A DNA stretch of 64,000 bases from Pelagibacteraceae bacterium AG-414-E02 (GTDB lineage Bacteria > Pseudomonadota > Alphaproteobacteria > Pelagibacterales > Pelagibacteraceae), in NCBI GenBank assembly GCA_003214615.1, contig QCLK01000001.1:1-64000 (forward strand), read 5' to 3'. Below, one piece after another: positions 5,327 to 64,000 of this stretch; within the stretch, counting starts at the first letter, position 1; every line of letters begins with the position of its first letter. Position numbers and translations under genes: made by a program. Under the pieces are notes generated by a model. The model was not told the DNA's origin, did no database searches, and saw nothing but the letters and a program-made list of their open reading frames with translations.

Positions 5327-6568
5327 ATGCAAGATACATTTCTAACAGAATTTAAAAAAAGAGGTTATTTTAATCAATGTACTGATCAGACGTCTTTGAG
5401 CGATTTAATGTCAAAATCTAAAATCAAGGCCTACATTGGCTTTGATTGCACAGCTCCAAGTCTACACGTTGGTAGTTTAATGCAAATAATGTGTCTTCGC
5501 CTACTTCAAAAATATGGTCATCAACCAATAGTTCTTCTTGGCGGAGGAACAACACTTATAGGCGATCCTTCAGGAAAAGAAGAAACTAGAAAGATTCTTG
5601 ATAAAAATGAAGTTAATAGAAATATTAAAAGTATTGAAAATATATTTAAGATATTTTTAAAATCGAAAAACCCAAAAACCAAACCAATTTTTGTAAACAA
5701 TTATTCATGGTTAGGCAAACTAAACTATATTAATTTTTTAAGAGAAATTGGAAAACATTTTACTATAAATAAAATGCTCACTTTCGACAGTGTTAAATTA
5801 AGATTGGAAAGAGAACAATCTCTTAGTTACATGGAATTTAACTATATGATGCTTCAAGCTTATGATTTTTACGAACTTAATAAAAAACATAAGTGTGTTT
5901 TGCAAATAGGAGGATCTGACCAATGGGGAAACATAGTTAATGGAACTGACCTAATAAAAAGAAAGGATGGTAAACAATCTTATGGTTTAACTACTCCATT
6001 AATAACAATGTCGTCTGGTGCTAAAATGGGAAAAACTGAAAAAGGAGCTATTTGGCTGAATAAAAAAATGTTTTCACCATACAGCTACTGGCAATTCTGG
6101 AGAAATACTGATGATAAAGATGTGATTAACTTTTTAAAATTTTTTACAGATTTAGATGTTGAAAAAATAGATAGTTTAAAAAACGATAGCCAAGACATAA
6201 ACAAACTCAAAATTTTACTTGCTAACGAGGCTACAGCAATGCTCCACGGATCTAAGGCCGCAAAAGATTCTGAATTAACAGCTCTAAAAACTTTTGGAGA
6301 TAAATCCATTGGTAAAAATCTACCTGTTGTAAAAATAAAAAAAAATATAATAACTAATGGCATTAATATATTAGATTTGGTTCTTCATACTAACTTGGCT
6401 AATTCTAAAAGTGAAATTAGACGTATGATTAAAAATAATGGTTTAAAAATTAATAACGAAACAGTAACTGATGAATTAAAAATAATTAATCAAAGCGACT
6501 TCGATTCTGAAAATAATATGAAAGTTTCTCATGGAAAAAAGCAGCATGTAATTATAAAAATTATTTAG
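5327..6568 (+). CDS. tyrS: Tyrosyl-tRNA synthetase
   Basis: Class I aminoacyl-tRNA synthetase of 413 residues. The Rossmann domain shows the HIGH-equivalent (APSLHVGSL), the tyrosine pocket (GGSDQWGNIVNG), and a KMSKS-equivalent that reads KMGKT. The C-terminal about 65 residues form an S4-like RNA-binding domain (LANSKSEIRRMIKNNGLKIN). The start ATG lies in the short divergent gap with anmK. The 3' end overlaps the convergent AsmA-like gene by 8 bases. Confidence 0.97.
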   Translation: MQDTFLTEFKKRGYFNQCTDQTSLSDLMSKSKIKAYIGFDCTAPSLHVGSLMQIMCLRLLQKYGHQPIVLLGGGTTLIGDPSGKEETRKILDKNEVNRNIKSIENIFKIFLKSKNPKTKPIFVNNYSWLGKLNYINFLREIGKHFTINKMLTFDSVKLRLEREQSLSYMEFNYMMLQAYDFYELNKKHKCVLQIGGSDQWGNIVNGTDLIKRKDGKQSYGLTTPLITMSSGAKMGKTEKGAIWLNKKMFSPYSYWQFWRNTDDKDVINFLKFFTDLDVEKIDSLKNDSQDINKLKILLANEATAMLHGSKAAKDSELTALKTFGDKSIGKNLPVVKIKKNIITNGINILDLVLHTNLANSKSEIRRMIKNNGLKINNETVTDELKIINQSDFDSENNMKVSHGKKQHVIIKII

Positions 6569-8798
6569 CTTTTTCCTTATTATTTTTTTTCATTTTTTCA
6601 ATAGCCCGTACGATAAATCTCGGAGTAATTGTTTTAATTGGATTAACAGTAGTTTTTATATCCTTTGGTGGCCCCTTCATTTTAAAGCTTACTCCGACCA
6701 CACCTTCTCCTGTTTTTTTTCCCACTAAAATATCTCCAACAATCGGTATTGAAGCAATTATTGCATTAAGCTTAGTAGCTGGTACTAATGTTCCTCTTAA
6801 ACTAACTACTTTACCTTTATCTACATATCCTTCTAATAAAATTGATACCGCAGGCCCTATGGCTAATGCATCTTCAATATTTAATACATTGCCTTCTGAA
6901 TTTGATTTCATTTCAAATGAATCAAAACGTATACCTTCACCACTAAGAGTATCTGCTATACCTTGTAAAGATGCTAAAGTTAAAAGCTTTGCCAAAGCAG
7001 GAACTTTTGAAACTTTAAAATCTGTAATTGTTAACTTTGAATTTGATATATTTTTTGAAATAATTGATTCATATTCCAGCTTTCCACCTTCAAATCCTTT
7101 CACAAAATCAAAGTTTTTTATAAAAGGTCGAGCACGATCTGATATTACTTGGAGAGTTTTTTTATCTTTATCTACTTGATAAATAGACATTTCAATTATT
7201 TCATTTTTTGAAAAATTTCCTTTCAAACTTAACTTTTCATACGATCCATTATTAATGAAAGCAATCATAGCAAAATTAGAAACATCATCATTTGTTCCTG
7301 TTAAGGTTTTTTCAAAATTTACACTAATATGGCTCTTAAAATTTTTGCCAAAGGTTTTTCTGGCATCTTTTTTATAAAGAGATTTTAGAAGATATTGTGC
7401 ATCAAAAACTTCACCATTAATAATAATTTTTTTAGATTTTGATGCAGAAAAATCATTATTTTTAACTCCATCAGAAAAAGTTTTAACATTAATATTTTTA
7501 AAATCAATTATTTCAAAATTTTTATTTAAAATTAACTTGGCTAATTTAATTTTAGTATTACCCTCTAAAAGTTCTAAATTTTTTATATTGTAATTTTTAT
7601 TTAAATTGAAATTTATATCAAAAAGCAGTTGAGATTTTTTTCCACTATTTTTTTTATAATTCAATCTTGAAATATTAACTTCAGAATTAGTTAAATCTAA
7701 CAAACCATTAATTGCAAAATTTTTTTTCTTATAATCATACTTTTCATTAATTTTAAAATTATCAAATTTTTCTCTTATTTTTATTAAACCTCTTAATTCG
7801 GCAGTTTGGTTGGATTTAGATTTGGTTAGTTTTACAATAATATCTTTAGCTACTAACTTTGGATCGTAATTTGCTAGATATCTCCTTATTATTTTTTTTT
7901 CTTTGGTTTGAAGTTCGAGTGAAGAAATTTTACCTTCTGTTTTATATGATAAATCTTTTATTTTTAATCTCTTGCTTAAATAAAAATTGATATTTGTTTT
8001 CAAATCTACTTTAGTATCAATATCTTTAAATTCAAACTTATTTAGATCAAAAAGAGATAACATTTTTTTAACTTCAAAAGTATTAAGCTTTCCTTTTGTA
8101 TGTAATAAACTTTTTATCTTTGTTTTATCTTTTTCACGTTTTAGATTAATTATAGTCCCTGCCAACTCTAAATCTAACAACGAACCTTTCGTTATTTTAA
8201 TAGCAAAGCCTCCTTCTTCTACTCCTTGGCCATGTTGTATTTCTGTTGTAAAATTTTTGATTGCAAAATCTTTTGTCAAAATAATAGAGGCATCAGAAAC
8301 TTTACCTGAAAATCCATAGTCTTCTCCAATATCACCATTTGGATCAAATGGTATATTGAATTCTCCTTCCAAATTTCCTTTTGCGAACACTTTTTTAAGC
8401 TGTTTATTTATAATTCTAGGAAGAAAAATATTGGTGATTTTAGCCAAATCTTTAATGTCATTTCTTACAAAAGCAACTTCAGCTTTTTTTAATAAAAAAT
8501 CAGAACTAAAAAAAGATTTTAGTGATAAGTATAAATCTAGTTTTGATAAATCGATTGTATTGTTTTTTATTAAAATTTTTGGACTTTGTAGCTTAACAAC
8601 AAGATTAAATTTTTTTGGATTAATATGAATTTTTGTCTCCTGAAAATTTAGTTTTACATGTCTGTTTACTTCATTTGCTTTTCCTTTAATTAAATTATCG
8701 AATTTGTCTGTTTTTATTCCAAAAAAACTTAAATAAAGTATTAAAATAATAGCACTAATTACTATTAAAAAAAAAAATCTTATTAAAAATTTACCCAT
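6561..8798 (-). CDS. AsmA/YhdP-like envelope protein
   Basis: A 745-residue protein with one N-terminal membrane helix (about residues 5-28, FLIRFFFLIVISAIILILYL) and a long, beta-rich periplasmic part. The conserved C-terminal block (about 620-730: LTLASLQGIADTLSGEG..., AIGPAVSILLEGYVDKG, LRGTLVPATKLN, IPIVGDIL) is that of the YhdP/DUF3971 branch of AsmA-like proteins, which are thought to carry phospholipids between the membranes. It lies just upstream of neither LPS nor lipid genes; mrcA-prfB is on the same strand and reads into it after 8 bases, so it may be the last gene of that unit. Confidence 0.75.
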   Translation of the reverse strand: MGKFLIRFFFLIVISAIILILYLSFFGIKTDKFDNLIKGKANEVNRHVKLNFQETKIHINPKKFNLVVKLQSPKILIKNNTIDLSKLDLYLSLKSFFSSDFLLKKAEVAFVRNDIKDLAKITNIFLPRIINKQLKKVFAKGNLEGEFNIPFDPNGDIGEDYGFSGKVSDASIILTKDFAIKNFTTEIQHGQGVEEGGFAIKITKGSLLDLELAGTIINLKREKDKTKIKSLLHTKGKLNTFEVKKMLSLFDLNKFEFKDIDTKVDLKTNINFYLSKRLKIKDLSYKTEGKISSLELQTKEKKIIRRYLANYDPKLVAKDIIVKLTKSKSNQTAELRGLIKIREKFDNFKINEKYDYKKKNFAINGLLDLTNSEVNISRLNYKKNSGKKSQLLFDINFNLNKNYNIKNLELLEGNTKIKLAKLILNKNFEIIDFKNINVKTFSDGVKNNDFSASKSKKIIINGEVFDAQYLLKSLYKKDARKTFGKNFKSHISVNFEKTLTGTNDDVSNFAMIAFINNGSYEKLSLKGNFSKNEIIEMSIYQVDKDKKTLQVISDRARPFIKNFDFVKGFEGGKLEYESIISKNISNSKLTITDFKVSKVPALAKLLTLASLQGIADTLSGEGIRFDSFEMKSNSEGNVLNIEDALAIGPAVSILLEGYVDKGKVVSLRGTLVPATKLNAIIASIPIVGDILVGKKTGEGVVGVSFKMKGPPKDIKTTVNPIKTITPRFIVRAIEKMKKNNKEKAK

Positions 8799-53596: not shown

Positions 53597-56029
53597 TTAA
53601 GCTCTTAACAATTTATTTTCTGGATCATATGGACTTTCTTCCAGAATTGTAGCGTCGTGCATTTTTCCTAAAATATCAATTTTTAATTTTTGGCCTGTTG
53701 TCGCAAGTTCGGGCTTAACCATACCTAAAGCTATTGATTTATTTAATCTAAAACCAAAATCGCCACCCGTAGCTCTTCCAACAACCTTGTTATTTTGATA
53801 AATCGGGTTATTTCCCAATACATCAGCATCAGTTACATTATGTAATTCAAGTGTTACTAATTTATTTGCAAAACCTTTTTCTCTCCATTTATTTAATGCT
53901 TCTAAGCCAATAAAGTTCCCTTTGTTTGGGTGAATAAATCTGTCTAATCCAGACTCATAAGGAGAATATTCAATAGATAATTCTGTTCCTACTAATTTAT
54001 ATGACTTTTCAACCCTTAAACTGTTCATGGCTCTTATCCCATAAGGTTTCAAACCTAAGTCTTTTCCAGCTTCCATTAACTTATCAAATATATGATTTTG
54101 ATATTCCATAGGATGATGAAGTTCCCATCCTAATTCACCTACGAAATTTACTCTCATTGCGTTAACCGGGGCATTTCCTACATTAACTTGTTTGGAGCTC
54201 AACCATTTAAAATTTTCATTTGAAAAGTCATCTTTCGAAACTCTTTTCATTAATTCTCTTGCCTTAGGCCCAGAAACAACAAGTACACCAATACTATTTG
54301 TTAAATTTTCAAACTGAACCGACCCATCTTTGGGCATCCATTTAAGAATCCAATCGTGATCTAATCTTTGAAAAGCGCCCGCAGATACTAAATAAAAACT
54401 GTCTTCTGCTTCTCTCATAATGGTAAATTCTGAATGAACACCACCTTTTGTATTTAGTGCGTGACATAAATTTATCCTGCCAACTTTTTTAGGAAGTTTA
54501 TTTGCTACTAAATAATCTAAAAATGACTCCGCCTTAGGACCTTTAATTCTACATTTGGCGAATGCTGTCATATCTAAAAGGCCAACATTTTCTTTAACGT
54601 TTTTACATTCCTTTTGTATTGCCTTAAACCATTTTGATCTTCTGAAAGACCAATCATCTTTTTGTTCCATTCCGTCTGTAGCAAAAAAATTCGCTCTCTC
54701 CCAACCAAATTTTTGTCCGAATACCGCTCCTAAATTTTTTAATCTATCGTAACACGGTGCAGTTCTTAGCGGTCTAGCAGCTGATCTTTCTTCATCAGGA
54801 TAATGAATAATAAATACATTTCGATAAGCTTCTTCGTTTTTTTCTTTTAAATATGATTTGGTAGCATAATCGCCATATCTTCTAGGTTCAACGCCAAGCA
54901 TATCAATTGTAGGTTCTCCATCCACAATCCACTCGGCTAATTGCCAACCTGCCCCACCCGCAGCTGTAATTCCAAAACTGTGTCCTTCGTTAATCCAAAA
55001 ATTTTTTAGACCCCAAGCAGGACCAACAACTGGATTGCCATCGGGAGTATAACAAATTGCTCCATTGTAAACTTTTTTAACACCTACTTCTTTAAAGGCC
55101 GGCACTCTATGATATGCGCTTTCAATATGAGGTAAAAGTCTATCTAAATCTTCTTGAAATAATTCATATTCTGAGTCTTTTGATGGTCCATCTACGTAAC
55201 AACAAGGAGCGCCATCTTCATAAGGTCCTAATATTAATCCTCCCGCTTCTTCTCTCATGTACCAACGACCATCACTGTCTCTAAGTACTCCCATTTCTGG
55301 CAAACCTTCTTTTTTTCTTTTTTGTATTTCAGGATGAGGTTCGGTTACTATGTATTGGTGCTCAACTGGTATTACTGGAATATTTAACCCAACCATTTGA
55401 CCAGTTTGCCTTGCAAAATTTCCTGAACAAGAAACAACATGTTCGCATTCAATTGTACCTTTATCAGTTTCAACCACCCATCCATTCTTTGTTTGTTTAA
55501 TTCCTATCACTGTTGTGTTTCTGTAAATTTCTGCACCTCTATTTCTTGCGCCGGTTGCTAGTGCTTGTGTTAAATCTGCTGGCTGAATATATCCATCCTC
55601 AGGATGTTGGATGGCGCCTACTAATCCTTCGATATTGATTAATGGCCAAATTTCTTTTACTTGTTCTGGTTTTAAAAATTTTACATCAACTCCAATTGTT
55701 TGAGCTACTCCTGCATATTGATGATATTCATCCATTCTATCTTTTGTACTTGCTAACCTAATGTTTGACACAACGCTAAATCCAACATTTTTCCCTGTTT
55801 CCTTTTCTAAAGTTTTATAAAGATCTACTGCATACTTATGAAGTTGTCCTACAGAATAACTCATATTGAAAAGTGGTAATAAACCTGCGGCATGCCAGGT
55901 TGAGCCTGATGTAAGTTCTTTTCTCTCAATTAAAACTACATCGGACCATCCTTTTTTAGCAAGATGATAAAGCATACTTACTCCAACTACGCCTCCACCA
56001 ACTACGACAACTTTAGCTTTTGATTTCAT
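53597..56029 (-). CDS. Dimethylglycine/sarcosine dehydrogenase family flavoprotein
   Basis: Oxidises N-methyl groups of dimethylglycine or sarcosine, passing electrons to ETF and the one-carbon unit to tetrahydrofolate. Start set at ATG 56027-56029 (MKSKAKVVVV), giving 810 residues; 15 extra upstream residues look spurious. Order: FAD-dependent DAO domain with VVGGGVVGVS (8-17) and His46 in GSTWHAAGL, the position carrying covalent FAD in this family; then a linker and a GcvT-like folate-binding half (about 450-800) with KGNFIGLEAL and GRATGGDFGFRLNKSIALG. Which of the two substrates is used cannot be settled by reading. Operon with etfBA and ETF-QO. Confidence 0.9.
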   Translation of the reverse strand: MKSKAKVVVVGGGVVGVSMLYHLAKKGWSDVVLIERKELTSGSTWHAAGLLPLFNMSYSVGQLHKYAVDLYKTLEKETGKNVGFSVVSNIRLASTKDRMDEYHQYAGVAQTIGVDVKFLKPEQVKEIWPLINIEGLVGAIQHPEDGYIQPADLTQALATGARNRGAEIYRNTTVIGIKQTKNGWVVETDKGTIECEHVVSCSGNFARQTGQMVGLNIPVIPVEHQYIVTEPHPEIQKRKKEGLPEMGVLRDSDGRWYMREEAGGLILGPYEDGAPCCYVDGPSKDSEYELFQEDLDRLLPHIESAYHRVPAFKEVGVKKVYNGAICYTPDGNPVVGPAWGLKNFWINEGHSFGITAAGGAGWQLAEWIVDGEPTIDMLGVEPRRYGDYATKSYLKEKNEEAYRNVFIIHYPDEERSAARPLRTAPCYDRLKNLGAVFGQKFGWERANFFATDGMEQKDDWSFRRSKWFKAIQKECKNVKENVGLLDMTAFAKCRIKGPKAESFLDYLVANKLPKKVGRINLCHALNTKGGVHSEFTIMREAEDSFYLVSAGAFQRLDHDWILKWMPKDGSVQFENLTNSIGVLVVSGPKARELMKRVSKDDFSNENFKWLSSKQVNVGNAPVNAMRVNFVGELGWELHHPMEYQNHIFDKLMEAGKDLGLKPYGIRAMNSLRVEKSYKLVGTELSIEYSPYESGLDRFIHPNKGNFIGLEALNKWREKGFANKLVTLELHNVTDADVLGNNPIYQNNKVVGRATGGDFGFRLNKSIALGMVKPELATTGQKLKIDILGKMHDATILEESPYDPENKLLRA

Positions 56030-56085
56030 AAATAAATAAGGTAAATTTCTAAATATAACCATATGATAGGTCAAGTTAGATTTAA

Positions 56086-58110: not shown

Positions 58111-59520
58111 CTATTTATTCAGAGTTGCCAACACTTCAGCTTCACGAGTATTTGCATTGAACGACTGAGTAAAAGGTATAGGAACAACTACCGCATCAAC
58201 TGGTTTCTTGGAATATTTCTTCGGCAAATGAACCTTGTATTTTTTACCAAAATTTCCAATTGGAAATCCTTTAGCGCTTCTATGTCCTTCGTACGGAACA
58301 TATCCCATTGCAATATTTTTTTTCTTTTCTGGGTGATACCAAGGTGATGTTATATAACCTATTGGTTTTCCTCCTTTTGCATCTGAAATCAGCCAAAAGT
58401 CTGGAGCATACTCTTCTATTGGTTTTCCGCCTAGTTCTAAACCTACGAGTTGGAGTTTGTAAGGTTTTTTTCCTTGTTGAATTTCTTCTTTCATTTTTTC
58501 TAAAGCTTCTTTTCCCACATAGTCTGTTTTTTTATTCCACTCACCTTTACCAGACAAAGAAACTTGATAACCTAAGTTGCACTGAAAAGGATTGTGTTCA
58601 TTATCCATATCTTGACCCCAAGACAAAATTCCTGCTTGGATTCTTCTGTGATGTGCAGGAGCAATAACCATTAACTTATGTTTTTTTCCAGCTTTTAGAA
58701 CAGCATTCCACATATCCTCTGCGTATAACGTGGCATCACGTAGATAAATTTCATACCCTGCTTCACCAGAAAATCCTGATTGAGAAATCACACAGCTCCT
58801 GCCACCTACTTTAGCTTCTGCCAAACCATAAAAAGGCATGTTATCTAAATCAACTTGATCTCCGATTAAATCATTCAGTAATGCTTTTGATTTAGGACCT
58901 TGTATTTGTACTGGGCATGCATCTATTTCGTCTATTTCTACGTTAAATTTTTTATCAGCATTAACTCCTTGTAAATACATTCCGATATCAGAGTCGGACA
59001 AACTAAACCAAAACTCATCATCAGCTACTCTTAATAAAACTGGATCGTTTAATACGCCACCTTTATTATTACAAAGAATAACGTAACGACCTCTCATTGT
59101 TGAAATTTTAGTTGCATCACGTGTTATCACATAATCTGTAAATTTTTCAGCATCTGGTCCTTTCACACGAATTTGTCTCTCAACAGCTACATTCCACATT
59201 GTTACATGATTTTTAATTGCTGCATATTCAACCATAGCACCACCTTTTTCAGGTTTCACGTAACCTCTTGGATGGTAAACACGATTATAAACTGTAGCTC
59301 GCCAGCATCCGGCTTTCATTGATAAATGCCAGTAAGGTGATTTTCTTACTCTTGTTGAAATTAACAATTCTACTTTTGTTGGTCCGCTTTGCCTTAAATT
59401 GTAAGGTACATATCGATCAGACTGATCAACAGATGTGGCGTGTCTAACTTTATCGTAATTAACTTTTTCAGGTTTGAATGAAACTGATTTTATTTTTTTA
59501 GTTTTTTTCTTTTTAGGCAT
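58111..59520 (-). CDS. DmdA-like THF-dependent demethylase (GcvT family)
   Basis: A 469-residue GcvT-fold protein. Residues about 57-420 follow DMSP demethylase DmdA as I recall it: TRVRKSPYWHLSMKAGCWRA, MWNVAVERQIRVKGPDAEKF, TRDATKI, DEFWFSLSDSDIGMYLQGV and RIQAGILSWGQDMDNEHNPF each have close DmdA counterparts. It is about 100 residues longer, with a Lys-rich N-terminal extension (1-55) and a longer C-terminus ending VVVPIPFTQSF, also seen in LigM/DesA-type O-demethylases. It probably moves a methyl group to THF; the donor (DMSP or another methylated compound) is unsure. It overlaps the MetF-like gene by 8 bases. Confidence 0.75.
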   Translation of the reverse strand: MPKKKKTKKIKSVSFKPEKVNYDKVRHATSVDQSDRYVPYNLRQSGPTKVELLISTRVRKSPYWHLSMKAGCWRATVYNRVYHPRGYVKPEKGGAMVEYAAIKNHVTMWNVAVERQIRVKGPDAEKFTDYVITRDATKISTMRGRYVILCNNKGGVLNDPVLLRVADDEFWFSLSDSDIGMYLQGVNADKKFNVEIDEIDACPVQIQGPKSKALLNDLIGDQVDLDNMPFYGLAEAKVGGRSCVISQSGFSGEAGYEIYLRDATLYAEDMWNAVLKAGKKHKLMVIAPAHHRRIQAGILSWGQDMDNEHNPFQCNLGYQVSLSGKGEWNKKTDYVGKEALEKMKEEIQQGKKPYKLQLVGLELGGKPIEEYAPDFWLISDAKGGKPIGYITSPWYHPEKKKNIAMGYVPYEGHRSAKGFPIGNFGKKYKVHLPKKYSKKPVDAVVVPIPFTQSFNANTREAEVLATLNK

Positions 59521-60241
59521 AATTATTCTCCGTTAACCATTTGTTAGTTTCTTTAAGTCCGCCAAAAGTATAAATATGAAAATTTTTAGTAGAATTTTTT
59601 AGTTTTTCTATTATATCATTTGGATCTCTAGGTTTTAATAAATCTACAGCTTTAGTTACATTAGATTTAAGAAAATCAATTGAATTTTTTGCCCCAACAA
59701 TATTCGCAAACTTTAATAGACTACTTATTTTTAGGGGACCAGTAATTCCAACATGAACTGGTAAAGTTTGTTTAGAAATAAATTTAACTATTGGCTCAGC
59801 ATTTAATAACCACTGGGTAACTATATAATCTGCATAAGGTTTCTTATCTATCATAGCTTTTTCTAAATCCGAGTCGGATATATCAGGGGACCCATCCGGA
59901 TGTCCAGCAATTCCTATCCTCCACCCCTCAAATAATCCTGTCTCTAACAACTGCAGTGAACAATGAAAATCTCCAATGGGTTGCGCGCTACCCCCAATTA
60001 CGAGAGCTTGTTTAACTCCACCATCTTTGCATCTACCAACAAAATCTTTTAATTCAGCTAGGTTTTTTATAGAACGCGCTGGAAAATGAGGCACTGGATT
60101 AAATCCAGATTTGGCTAGTTCTATAGCCTTGTTTGCTACCTCTCTATAATCGTTACCGGGTAATAAGGTTATATAAACATCTTTTACTTTGGGCAAAACT
60201 GCTAGGTCAGTCTTCATGGTAATTTCTATTGAGAAATTCAT
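59513..60241 (-). CDS. MetF-like methylenetetrahydrofolate reductase
   Basis: A 242-residue TIM-barrel protein of the MTHFR family. Recognisable parts are VYITLLPGNDYREVANKAIELAKSG, PHFPARSI, QALVIGGSAQPIG (like the GD loop of MetF), GIAGHPDGSPDIS (like the YPEGHP loop) and DYIVTQWLLNAEPIVKFI (like the FITQ segment). It is shorter than ordinary MetF. Coupled to the DmdA-like gene, it probably oxidises the 5-methyl-THF made there to methylene-THF. ATG at 60241 or a second ATG at 60217 may be the start; neither has a strong ribosome binding site. Confidence 0.8.
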   Translation of the reverse strand: MNFSIEITMKTDLAVLPKVKDVYITLLPGNDYREVANKAIELAKSGFNPVPHFPARSIKNLAELKDFVGRCKDGGVKQALVIGGSAQPIGDFHCSLQLLETGLFEGWRIGIAGHPDGSPDISDSDLEKAMIDKKPYADYIVTQWLLNAEPIVKFISKQTLPVHVGITGPLKISSLLKFANIVGAKNSIDFLKSNVTKAVDLLKPRDPNDIIEKLKNSTKNFHIYTFGGLKETNKWLTENNYA

Positions 60242-60256
60242 AATCCACGGGATATA

Positions 60257-60281
60257 CCAGCGGACCCCCTGGAATGTCCAG
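60257..60281. promoter_or_regulatory. GC-rich dyads in divergent promoter region
   Basis: CTGGA-ATG-TCCAG (60269-60281) is a perfect 5-bp dyad, CCAG/CTGG (60257-60260 with 60269-60272) is another, and GGAC/GTCC overlaps both. They form an unusually GC-rich island in the 92-base gap between the MetF-like and Rieske genes (using the 60334 start), where an operator controlling both directions would be expected. It could instead be a coding remnant. Confidence 0.35.
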
Positions 60282-60333
60282 AGATTTTGCTTCGAATCTA
60301 TTGCCTATTTATAGGGAAATGCTAGGATTTTCT

Positions 60334-61527
60334 ATGACCAAGCTTAACGGCCAAACAAATATTTACGATATAGTAAAAAAAGAAAAGTTAGATGTTGTAA
60401 ATAAACCTATTTCTGAAGCACACGGTCTTCCAAACGAATGCTACAATAATATTGAATATACTAAAATAGAAAGAAAAAAACTTTTCGAAGATAAATGGGT
60501 TGTTGTAGGAGTTGCTAGCTCAATACCTAAACCAGGAGATGCAAAACCTTTTGATTTATTAGGAATTCCCTTAATTTTATTAAGAAATAAAAAAAATCAA
60601 GTTAAAGTTTACCATAATGTTTGTAGTCATAGAGGATATAAAATTTTACAAAAAAAGTGCTATATAAAAAATGTAATAAGATGTCCCTACCACTCCTGGT
60701 CTTATAATTTAGATGGTGAACTTGTTGCAACTCCTCACCTAGGAGGAATGGATAAACACGAATCAAAGGATTTTGACAAATCTTTAAGCGGTCTTAAAGA
60801 AGTTCGCTCCTTCATTTGGTTAGATATGATTATTGTAAATATTTCCAATAATGAAGTACCGTTTGAGAAATATATTAAACCATTAAAAGATCGATGGTCT
60901 AAGTTTTGGCCAGAAAAAGATCAAAAACTAATTAAACATTCAAATGATTTAGGTTATTTTAAATTAAAAGCAAAGTGTAATTGGAAGTTTGCTATTGAAA
61001 ATTATTGCGAAAGCTATCATTTACCTTGGGTTCATCCAGGTTTAAATAGTTATTCTAAAATTAGTGATCATTATCATATACAAGGTTTGCCAAATAGATT
61101 CGCTGGCCAAGGAACTGTTGTTTATAATCCTAGATTAAAAGGTAAAAATAAATTTCCATGTTTTCCTAATTGGCCAAAAAATAAAATAAATATAGCCGAA
61201 TATGTTGCTCTTTTTCCTAATGTAATGATGGGCGTGCATAAAGACCACTATTACGCATATTGGTTAGAACCAGTAAATCATCAACTTACCATAGAACATA
61301 TGGAAATTTATTATGTGGGTAATGAAGCAGCAAATTCAAAAAAATTTAAGAACTTAAGAAAGCAAAATTTAAAACTTTGGTATAATGTTCAATACGAGGA
61401 TGTTCATATTATAGAAGGCATGCAAGAAGGTAGAAACTCACCTTCTTATAATGGTGGAAACTTTTCACCAGTTATGGACAATCCTACTCATCATTTTCAT
61501 AAATGGGTAGCAACAAATATAGTGTAA
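60334..61527 (+). CDS. Rieske non-heme iron oxygenase, GbcA-like
   Basis: Alpha subunit of a Rieske oxygenase (397 residues from the chosen ATG at 60334, preceded by AGGA with 6-base spacing; an ATG at 60274 is also open). The [2Fe-2S] ligands are Cys97, His99, Cys117 and His120 (CSHRG, CPYHSW). The mononuclear iron ligands are His229, His234 (ENYCESYHLPWVHPG) and Asp356 (YEDVHIIEG). The pattern is that of the glycine betaine/stachydrine/carnitine monooxygenase group rather than classical ring dioxygenases. No reductase partner is in the window. First gene of a four-gene operon. Confidence 0.85.
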   Translation: MTKLNGQTNIYDIVKKEKLDVVNKPISEAHGLPNECYNNIEYTKIERKKLFEDKWVVVGVASSIPKPGDAKPFDLLGIPLILLRNKKNQVKVYHNVCSHRGYKILQKKCYIKNVIRCPYHSWSYNLDGELVATPHLGGMDKHESKDFDKSLSGLKEVRSFIWLDMIIVNISNNEVPFEKYIKPLKDRWSKFWPEKDQKLIKHSNDLGYFKLKAKCNWKFAIENYCESYHLPWVHPGLNSYSKISDHYHIQGLPNRFAGQGTVVYNPRLKGKNKFPCFPNWPKNKINIAEYVALFPNVMMGVHKDHYYAYWLEPVNHQLTIEHMEIYYVGNEAANSKKFKNLRKQNLKLWYNVQYEDVHIIEGMQEGRNSPSYNGGNFSPVMDNPTHHFHKWVATNIV

Positions 61528-62765
61528 TGAAATTTAAAAGAAAAATAATTCCTGATTCTAATTATTCTCCTGGTATCATAACTAAAAAAAGGTTGTATGA
61601 AGAAGAAATTGATTTTGATAAATTAAGATTATATCGACTAGACAGAATAAAAAATGAGTTGTCAAAAAAAGACATTGGTGCATGCATTTTATTTGATCCT
61701 GTAAATATTCGATATGCTTTGGATTCAGTAAATATGAGTATATTTACTATGCATAATTTACATCGGTATTGTTTTATTCCAGTAAATGGGCCGATAATTC
61801 TTTTTGAATTTTTTAATTGTGAACATCTGTCAAAGCACCTGAAATTAATTGACGAGATAAGACCGGGAATATCATGGGATTATTTTGCTCATGGAGATCA
61901 AGTTGAAAAGCAAATTAAAAAATGGACTGATGAAGTTCAAAATTTAATGAATCAAAATTGTGGAAAAAATAAAAGATTAGCTATTGATGTATGTAATGGA
62001 CCTGGTGTTTTAGCACTTAACAAAATTGGATTAAAAATTATTGATGCAAAAGAAATATTTGAACAAGCAAGAGTTATCAAATCTAAAGAAGAAGTTCAAT
62101 GTATGAAGGCTTCTCTTGAAGTTTGCGAAAAAGGAGTTCGGTTGATGAGAAATGAATTAAAAGCTGGCATTACAGAAGATGAACTTTGGTCTCTATTTCA
62201 TAAAACAAATATTGAAAATGGAGGTGAGTGGATTGAATGTAGAATGTTAACTTCAGGACAAAGAACAAATCCGTGGATGCAGGAAAGCAGTAATAAAGTT
62301 ATTCAACAAGGAGAAATAGTTTCTTTCGATACAGACATGGTCGGTCTTTACGGATACTGCGCTGACATCTCAAGAACTTTTGTTGTGGGTCATAAATTTA
62401 GTTCTGAACAAAAAAAATTATATAAAATGGCTACTGATCAAATAAATCATAATTCAGAATTAATTAAACCTGGTTTATCATTTAAAGAGTTTGTGCAAAA
62501 ATCTTGGAAACTTCCAGAACCTTATTATGGCAATCGTTATTCCTGTATGTTGCATGGAATCGGTTTGTGTGATGAGTGGCCAATGATTAAATATCCTACT
62601 GACGGCGGCCAACAAAGTGGGCGGTTTGAAAAAAATATGACTGTAACAGTTGAATCATACATAGGAGAAGTTGGTGGTAAAGAAGGAGTAAAATTAGAAC
62701 AACAATATATGATTGGGGAAAATGGACTTGAGCTGATGTCCCATCATCCTCTAGAGGATTTATAA
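61527..62765 (+). CDS. dddP: DddP-like M24 protein, probable DMSP lyase
   Basis: A 412-residue protein of the M24 (creatinase/prolidase) fold. The start is ATG at 61527, sharing one base with the Rieske stop (TAATG). Metal ligands are Asp268, Asp270, Asp280 (FDTDMVGLYGYCAD), His343, Glu376 and Glu391, with spacing equal or within one residue of roseobacter DddP (D295, D297, D307, H371, E406, E421 as I recall). Tyr338 and Asp349 (RYSCMLHGIGLCDEW) fit the DddP catalytic Tyr366 and Asp377. DddP cleaves DMSP to dimethyl sulfide and acrylate. A different onium substrate remains possible given the neighbours. Confidence 0.8.
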   Translation: MKFKRKIIPDSNYSPGIITKKRLYEEEIDFDKLRLYRLDRIKNELSKKDIGACILFDPVNIRYALDSVNMSIFTMHNLHRYCFIPVNGPIILFEFFNCEHLSKHLKLIDEIRPGISWDYFAHGDQVEKQIKKWTDEVQNLMNQNCGKNKRLAIDVCNGPGVLALNKIGLKIIDAKEIFEQARVIKSKEEVQCMKASLEVCEKGVRLMRNELKAGITEDELWSLFHKTNIENGGEWIECRMLTSGQRTNPWMQESSNKVIQQGEIVSFDTDMVGLYGYCADISRTFVVGHKFSSEQKKLYKMATDQINHNSELIKPGLSFKEFVQKSWKLPEPYYGNRYSCMLHGIGLCDEWPMIKYPTDGGQQSGRFEKNMTVTVESYIGEVGGKEGVKLEQQYMIGENGLELMSHHPLEDL

Positions 62766-62770
62766 TTAGA

Positions 62771-63622
62771 ATGAATAATAGATTAGAAACCATAGTAGAT
62801 CTTAAAAAATATCCAATCCAGGATTTAGATTCTCCTTTAATAAAAAAATTAATAAAAAAATGTAAAAGTGATTTAGACCAATTTAGTTGTGCTACTATTC
62901 CTAATTTTATTTTACCCAAATCATTAAAAATAATGAATACAGAGTTAGAAAAACAACTTGATGAAGTTTATATGTCAAAGCAAAGTATAAACGCATATTT
63001 ATATTCAAAAGACGATCCTTCATTACCAAAAGATCATCCAAAAAGAATATTTATGGATCGTTATAATGGATATTTGAACTCAGATGTTTTTCCGAAAAAT
63101 TCGGAAATGAAATTTCTTTATGAACAAGATGAACTTTTAAATTTTGTGTCAGCTTGCCTTGGAATATCACCGATTTACCGATGGGCCGATCCTTTAGCTT
63201 GTCATGCTTATAATGTTATGAAACCAGACGGTATTCTTCCTTGGCATTTTGATAGCTGCGAATTTACCTTAAGTTTCATGATACAAAAACCTGACAAAGG
63301 TGGAATATTTGAGTACTGCCCTAACATACGTGAACCTGGAAATGAAAAATTAGCAGAAGTTAAAAAAGTACTTGATGGAGATCGTAAAAGAGTTCGTCAA
63401 TTAAAATTAGAACCGGGTGATCTTCAAATATTTAAAGGACGTTTTACTCTTCATCGAGTCACAAAAATAGAAGGAAATCGTTCTAGATACCTTTGTATAC
63501 CAGCTTACGTGCTTGATCCTTGGAGAGTAAATACTCCAGAGCATTCTAAAGCTATATATGGGAAAATACTTCCAATTCACATTGAAAGAAATAAGCCTAG
63601 ATCTGATGGCTTGGCGGATTAA
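62771..63622 (+). CDS. Fe(II)/2-oxoglutarate dioxygenase, PhyH-like
   Basis: A 283-residue double-stranded beta-helix oxygenase. The iron triad is His159, Asp161 (LPWHFDSCEFT) and His228 (GRFTLHRVT); Arg residues in EGNRSRYL probably bind 2-oxoglutarate. The GDLQIFKGRFTLHRVTKIEG stretch is typical of a phytanoyl-CoA dioxygenase-like subgroup with unknown substrates. It lies 5 bases after the DddP-like gene and ends directly before the next ATG. A hydroxylation step on a small quaternary or carboxylic compound is inferred. Confidence 0.8.
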   Translation: MNNRLETIVDLKKYPIQDLDSPLIKKLIKKCKSDLDQFSCATIPNFILPKSLKIMNTELEKQLDEVYMSKQSINAYLYSKDDPSLPKDHPKRIFMDRYNGYLNSDVFPKNSEMKFLYEQDELLNFVSACLGISPIYRWADPLACHAYNVMKPDGILPWHFDSCEFTLSFMIQKPDKGGIFEYCPNIREPGNEKLAEVKKVLDGDRKRVRQLKLEPGDLQIFKGRFTLHRVTKIEGNRSRYLCIPAYVLDPWRVNTPEHSKAIYGKILPIHIERNKPRSDGLAD

Positions 63623-64000
63623 ATGATTAAAAAAGTATCAATTATAGGTACTGGGGTTATTGGTACCGGTTGGATTATTAGATGTTTAGCCCATAATAAA
63701 AAAGTTATCGCGTTTGATAAAGAAATTAAATTAAAAAAAAAATTAATAGTTGAGATAAAACGTGCGTGGCCTTTTATAAAAAAATTATTTAATAAAAAAA
63801 AACTTAATCTTAAAAATTTTAAATATGTCTCTACAATTGAAGAAGCTGTAAAAACCGCTGATTTTATTCAAGAATGTGCAACAGAAAATTATAATCTAAA
63901 AACAAAATTAATGAAAAATATTGGAAAATTTGCAAAACCAAATGCAATTATTTCCTCTAGTTCATCTGGATTATTACCTACAAAAATTTACTCGAAATGT
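63623..64000 (+). CDS. L-carnitine dehydrogenase-like enzyme (3' end off window)
   Basis: The frame starts with ATG immediately after the previous stop and stays open for 126 codons to the window edge. It begins MIKKVSIIGTGVIGTGWII, an NAD-binding Rossmann motif, then VSTIEEAVKTADFIQECATEN and AIISSSSSGLLPTKIYSK. The ADFIQE and SSxSGLLPT segments are those of L-carnitine 3-dehydrogenases within the 3-hydroxyacyl-CoA dehydrogenase family. That enzyme turns carnitine into 3-dehydrocarnitine, which leads to glycine betaine. A general hydroxyacyl-CoA dehydrogenase is the alternative. Confidence 0.75.
   Translation, partial: MIKKVSIIGTGVIGTGWIIRCLAHNKKVIAFDKEIKLKKKLIVEIKRAWPFIKKLFNKKKLNLKNFKYVSTIEEAVKTADFIQECATENYNLKTKLMKNIGKFAKPNAIISSSSSGLLPTKIYSKC

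Follow-up and report, generated by a model that had tools for sequence, protein, structure and literature searches.

A probable two-module operon for onium catabolism at the right end of a 64,000-nucleotide Pelagibacteraceae window

Which compound or compounds are handled by four closely packed plus-strand genes in a SAR11 genome, and do the four enzymes act together? The genes lie at the 3' end of the window, i.e. the whole stretch of 64,000 nucleotides analysed here, which forms the left end of contig C1 (QCLK01000001.1) in a 1.14 Mb, 87%-complete genome (Pelagibacteraceae bacterium AG-414-E02). Judged by the 2-oxoglutarate (2OG) oxygenase gene, its nearest relatives are Pelagibacteraceae single cells (SAR11). 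An earlier note, made from the letters alone, had assigned the genes to the breakdown of a methylated onium compound, with one substrate passing through several of the products. All four open reading frames were found, and the parts of the operon are known kinds of enzyme. The features are as follows.

53597-56074, minus strand: dimethylglycine dehydrogenase-like protein, C1 island context (Pfam DAO and GCV_T)
58111-59520, minus strand: DmdA/GcvT-like aminomethyltransferase of the SAR11_1265 type, neighbour (Pfam GCV_T; NCBIfam DmdA)
59513-60241, minus strand: MetF/MTHFR-like gene of the SAR11_1264 type, divergent neighbour (open reading frame)
60334-61527, plus strand: Rieske oxygenase alpha subunit, CntA-like quaternary-ammonium (group Va) type (Pfam, CntA match, conserved residues)
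61527-62765, plus strand: M24-family enzyme, DddP-like, outside the DddP clade (NCBIfam score, residues, tree)
62771-63622, plus strand: HalD/BesD-like 2-oxoglutarate/Fe(II) oxygenase, predicted hydroxylase (PF23169, AF2/Foldseek, triad)
63623-64000, plus strand: predicted L-carnitine 3-dehydrogenase (HADH family), first 126 of 312 residues (NCBIfam score, BKACE partnership)
64562-64921 of the contig, plus strand: GFA-family gene, fifth and last of the run, 0 bp after HADH

The junctions Rieske/M24, M24/2OG, 2OG/HADH and HADH/GFA measure -1, 5, 0 and 0 bases, so the gaps of 0 to 5 bases or a one-base overlap reported earlier for the four genes were confirmed; the overlap is the single base shared by the Rieske TAA (61525-61527) and the M24 ATG at 61527. 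As the earlier note had also stated, the operon goes on past the right edge, where HADH extends to contig position 64561 and is followed by the GFA gene. The Rieske frame can be read from 60274, but close relatives begin at an ATG corresponding to 60334; this codon, preceded by AGGA, is therefore the probable start. At 29-32% GC, Rieske, M24, 2OG and HADH are close in composition to the whole window (mean 29%). The sequence separating the divergent MetF-like and Rieske genes, a leader at 60242-60333, is conserved among close relatives, with the invariant GGGATATA...CAG. A known RNA element in this leader was considered and rejected: the consensus structure comprised just 3 pairs with zero double changes, and an Rfam search at E<=1 gave no match.

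To the right of GFA, the minus strand carries in order ALDH, ProW, ProX, DMGDH-like and BHMT genes. To the left, the GcvT-like neighbour scores 241 bits against NCBIfam DmdA, below the cut-off of 410; in the accessible text of PMC3160333, the MetF-like gene is paired with the GcvT-like gene (SAR11_1264/1265). The window operon lies among the genes of the SAR11 glycine betaine/C1 pathway (BhmT, DMGDH, SarDH) described in that text, which, however, does not name Rieske, M24 or 2OG.

Co-occurrence was counted in 117 Pelagibacterales genomes, at identities of at least 70% for M24, 77% for 2OG and 70% for HADH. M24 and 2OG were present in exactly the same 16 genomes, all of which carried Rieske. 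Such an identical set would have a probability of about 5e-20 if the draws were independent, a weight that shared descent lowers; since the 16 genomes, like the 20 of the HADH set considered below, are related by descent, the independent events are fewer than the genomes. In four of the 16 (G015, G056, G074 and G088), M24 and 2OG are separated by more than 100 kb or belong to different contigs, and linkage alone therefore cannot explain their co-occurrence. Another 24 genomes have Rieske but neither M24 nor 2OG, and Rieske may therefore act on a different substrate from theirs. In separate counts over the order, 36 of 150 near-complete genomes encoded a relative of the 2OG gene, and 35 of 75 a Rieske of the window family.

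In 66 of the 81 loci carrying the 2OG gene, a single strand bears Rieske, then M24, then 2OG, a recurrence that goes beyond chance. The genes inserted among them vary from locus to locus (BHMT, DMGDH, methyltransferase, small kinase, nucleotidyltransferase), and the downstream end of the cluster is ECH, HADH-GFA or AldII-HADH-FrhB. The exact four-gene order, for which a search in other genomes had been proposed, is thus one arrangement of movable modules, although its first three genes recur. The strong differences in order and insertions among loci, together with the occurrence of Rieske and of HADH each without the others, would suit mere neighbours in a recombining SAR11 C1/onium island, with Rieske, M24/2OG and HADH each serving a compound of its own. 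We consider this doubtful: M24 and 2OG keep strictly to the same genomes even where they are unlinked, and the pair is met again in beta-, gamma- and other alphaproteobacteria.

In our preferred reading, the right end of the window is probably a composite onium-catabolic operon made of two modules, A (Rieske, M24 and 2OG) and B (HADH). The assignment to onium catabolism in the earlier note is supported, and its idea of one substrate passing through several enzymes finds support in the functional tie between M24 and 2OG, which always go with Rieske, but not for all four in order. Module A is best read as a so far undescribed oxidative pathway whose substrate would be a small, betaine-like onium compound with a carboxyl group.

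The departure from a single substrate comes from HADH. This protein matches Pfam 3HCDH, and its best NCBIfam score is with L-carnitine dehydrogenase NF005471 (360 bits, below the cut-off of 414); the SAR11 form beside BKACE and BBOX, at 372 bits, is likewise under that cut-off. In carnitine catabolism, carnitine 3-dehydrogenase supplies 3-dehydrocarnitine to BKACE. Within f1, the family of the window, HADH and BKACE occupy an identical set of 20 genomes, and in family f2 each is present in 38 of 39. In seven genomes (G015, G056, G030, G042, G044, G107 and G088) HADH and BKACE are direct neighbours, and BBOX and ProXWV-type genes belong to the same island, as the known carnitine route would have it. 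The window genome differs in that its dehydrogenase is in the Rieske operon, whereas the corresponding island is about 50 kb downstream (C1:112444-122257: choline dehydrogenase-like, HD, TauD, thioesterase, BKACE at C1:115933, SDR, ProVWX and BBOX); this island contains no HADH, and no second member of the window HADH family was found in the genome. Because HADH tracks BKACE and the home island lacks the dehydrogenase, the window HADH is very probably a carnitine 3-dehydrogenase.

A linear pathway would use all four enzymes on a carnitine-like substrate, which 2OG hydroxylates, HADH oxidises, M24 cleaves and Rieske demethylates. 2OG does directly adjoin HADH in the window and in 7 of the 81 loci, and the two genes are found together inside the carnitine island, behind ProV, in L057 and L089. 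However, of the 16 genomes that have both M24 and 2OG, five are without HADH (it is present in 11), and nine f1 genomes have HADH without M24/2OG, always with BKACE; it follows BKACE and not M24/2OG, which speaks against a single substrate for all four and leaves the linear pathway quite unlikely. The simplest reading of the two loci is that the 2OG-HADH pair moved between the carnitine island and the Rieske operon. Also in the downstream island, TauD-like and HD-domain oxygenase genes (L244:2444-5391, i.e. C1:112444-115391; TmpB/PhnZ-like, below cut-off) stand beside the choline dehydrogenase gene, which suggests phosphonate use there.

Within module A, the 2OG protein scored 46 bits against Pfam HalD PF23169 (cut-off 26) and had no match to Pfam PhyH at cut-off. 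Its AF2 model, computed from an alignment that excluded two rows from plasmid records, had a pLDDT of 93.8, and the top Foldseek matches were HalD, BesD, HalB and HalA, with E values down to 2e-15. The PhyH label given in the earlier note was thus discarded in favour of HalD, on Pfam and Foldseek evidence. The protein shares the fold and the 2OG/Fe site of the BesD/HalD enzymes (PDB 7u6h, 6nie; hydroxylase homologue 7jsd), with site residues H159-x-D161, H228 and R239 and a triad invariant in 19 sequences; it differs in its 11-18% identity to them, in its betaine-type context and in its triad. In halogenases of the BesD/HalD type, Gly replaces the Asp of the HxD triad. The window protein reads H159-F-D161 instead of the halogenase HxG, and since Asp161 is present the enzyme is predicted to be a hydroxylase; a halogenase function was excluded on the same ground.

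Pairs of 2OG and M24 genes were also found outside SAR11. On a Caballeronia SBC2 plasmid, a LysR gene is next to the series 2OG-M24-OpuAC-OpuAB-OpuAA; Pseudomonas MPC6 has 2OG-M24-FrhB with ProXWV a few kb further on; and the alphaproteobacterial genome G311 has the 2OG-M24 pair. In rhizobia, M24 genes pair with a GbcA-like Rieske and a reductase, and have 4-hydroxyproline genes or genes of formaldehyde oxidation as neighbours. Near relatives of M24 (L207) and of 2OG (L210) there are genes for MTTB-type methyltransferases and DMGDH-like proteins. Among solved binding proteins, RnDmpX, whose structure contains DMSP, is nearest to the ProX of Caballeronia and SAR11. The RnDmpX residues W35, T64, W84, W152, Y200 and W202, which include the four cage tryptophans (W35, W84, W152 and W202), are kept in the ProX of the Caballeronia, MPC6 and SAR11 loci; the OpuAC of G311 has no tryptophan cage.

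The M24 protein, a Pfam Peptidase_M24 match, was compared with DddP. It shares with DddP (PDB 4rzy) the fold and every one of the eight metal-binding or catalytic residues compared: the ligands D295, D297, D307, H371, E406 and E421, and Y366 and D377 near the metals. It differs in being only 36.6% identical to RlDddP, in scoring 384 bits against NCBIfam DddP NF043017, under the equivalog cut-off of 600, and in its position in the tree, where it falls outside the DddP clade and groups with the 2OG-linked M24s of MPC6 and G311 and with an S. meliloti M24 (support 0.93). A true DddP identity thus failed on score and tree, the conserved residues notwithstanding. Moreover, D377, the proposed catalytic base, is replaced by Gly in the proteins of G311 and S. 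meliloti and, by sequence reading, in that of Caballeronia, so the chemistry inside this clade may vary.

The conserved residues, the DMSP-bound RnDmpX as closest structure to the importer, the adjacent DmdA-like gene and a true DddP in a related SAR11 onium operon (L229) would all suit an M24 that is a working lyase for DMSP or a close sulfonium relative (gonyol), in an operon serving sulfoniums through the DmpX-like transporter next door. We judge this unlikely, given the identity, score and tree position above and the grouping with M24s of soil-bacterial 2OG operons, where DMSP would be an unexpected substrate. Finding a DddP-like M24 gene in a metagenome should accordingly not be taken as evidence of a DMSP lyase unless its clade has been tested.

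The Rieske protein contains Pfam Rieske and Ring_hydroxyl_A domains, and its best PDB match, covering most of the protein at 111 bits, is CntA (6y8j). Y244 aligns with the pi-cation Tyr203 of CntA, so that the aromatic residue is kept, and E246 corresponds to the bridging Glu205 and is invariant in 19 sequences. The proteins differ at the Cys206/Cys209 pair of CntA (and some group V members), which is replaced by S247 and L250, and in the lack of a CntB-type reductase partner near the window gene. GbcA, named beside CntA in the earlier note, was ruled out by score and motif: the match to NCBIfam NF058607 is partial (46-259) and reaches 118.5 bits for a cut-off of 670. The DddP-like and carnitine-dehydrogenase-like assignments of that note held, as did the CntA-like one. 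Among the genes for which it had proposed a search to the right, those for betaine transport lie close by, and those for BKACE and thioesterase were located some 50 kb off, but a Rieske reductase of the GbcB/VanB type was not found in the 87%-complete genome, where tblastn with four reductase types returned a single weak match at 25% identity.

The sister clade of the SAR11 Rieske sits in Rieske-ALDH-FAD-FAD-cupin-LysR operons, which we take to resemble the homarine operon of Ferrer-Gonzalez et al. 2026. Were the window Rieske a homarine-type (homA-like) oxygenase, module A would degrade a methylated pyridine. The companion genes of the sister operon are, however, not near the SAR11 Rieske. 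Identity to the FAD oxidase of that operon is 29-33% in its closest SAR11 relatives, and the ALDH on the window side matches the ALDH there at 35%; we regard this reading as very improbable. A complete homarine-type operon was searched for in the window genome and was not found.

For module A we return to a carboxylated onium compound, the likely substrate class, with DMSP, gamma-butyrobetaine-like compounds and other betaines as candidates. The literature searched yielded no substrate description for the Rieske and 2OG families. The compound would be imported by the ProXWV-type transporter. The BesD-type 2OG enzyme would then hydroxylate it, and the DddP-like M24 would cleave what results or a derivative of it; this division of labour between 2OG and M24 is probable. 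That Rieske acts on the same compound, or on its product, is favoured slightly; the CntA-like enzyme would N-demethylate or oxidatively cleave it. The order of these steps is one that we infer. SAR11 would in this way use an O2-dependent Rieske for demethylation, instead of the MTTB-type methyltransferases near the relatives. Formaldehyde and glycine-type products would pass to the neighbouring C1/betaine genes GFA, DMGDH, BHMT and MetF. In module B, HADH would take part in the route from gamma-butyrobetaine through carnitine and 3-dehydrocarnitine to glycine betaine, with the other genes of the route (BBOX, BKACE, thioesterase and ProXWV) in the downstream island.

More generally, the chances are about even that a BesD-type hydroxylase and a DddP-like M24 constitute an undescribed two-enzyme core, associated with a tryptophan-cage importer in alpha-, beta- and gammaproteobacteria, which hydroxylates and cleaves a carboxylated onium osmolyte and to which SAR11 adds a CntA-like Rieske. 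In the open literature searched, we found neither the 2OG-M24 core nor its combination with a CntA-like Rieske described. If the reading is right, Caballeronia or Pseudomonas strains with 2OG-M24 beside a transporter offer a culturable, genetically tractable route to the substrate.

Several related loci showed other combinations. In L233 and L234 (G022 and G042), Rieske occurs without M24/2OG, together with an EgtD-type histidine-specific methyltransferase, an EgtB-like protein and an SBP56 (methanethiol-oxidase-type) protein; both loci also encode a [2Fe-2S] ferredoxin, which could be the Rieske electron donor. A second 2OG paralogue, about 51% identical, is found with HIBADH, class II aldolase-family and FrhB-family genes (L034:10855-11697 and other loci), and this is another undescribed set. 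Behind Rieske-2OG-HIBADH-AldII-FrhB in L114 lies a mandelate-racemase-family gene (5742-6845) whose PDB matches include 4e8g/4izg/4j1o and 2pmq/4h2h, presumably the hydroxyproline betaine epimerase group; an HpbD-type epimerase was rejected as a general partner, being found behind 2OG in this one SAR11 locus. Finally, the true DddP of L229 (11574-12944; G002, genus g8 of SAR11 family f2) scores 788 bits, above the cut-off of 600, and is part of a BKACE-HADH-BBOX-DddP-BHMT-DMGDH operon; M24 genes at its match level were found in 15 genomes of genus g8.
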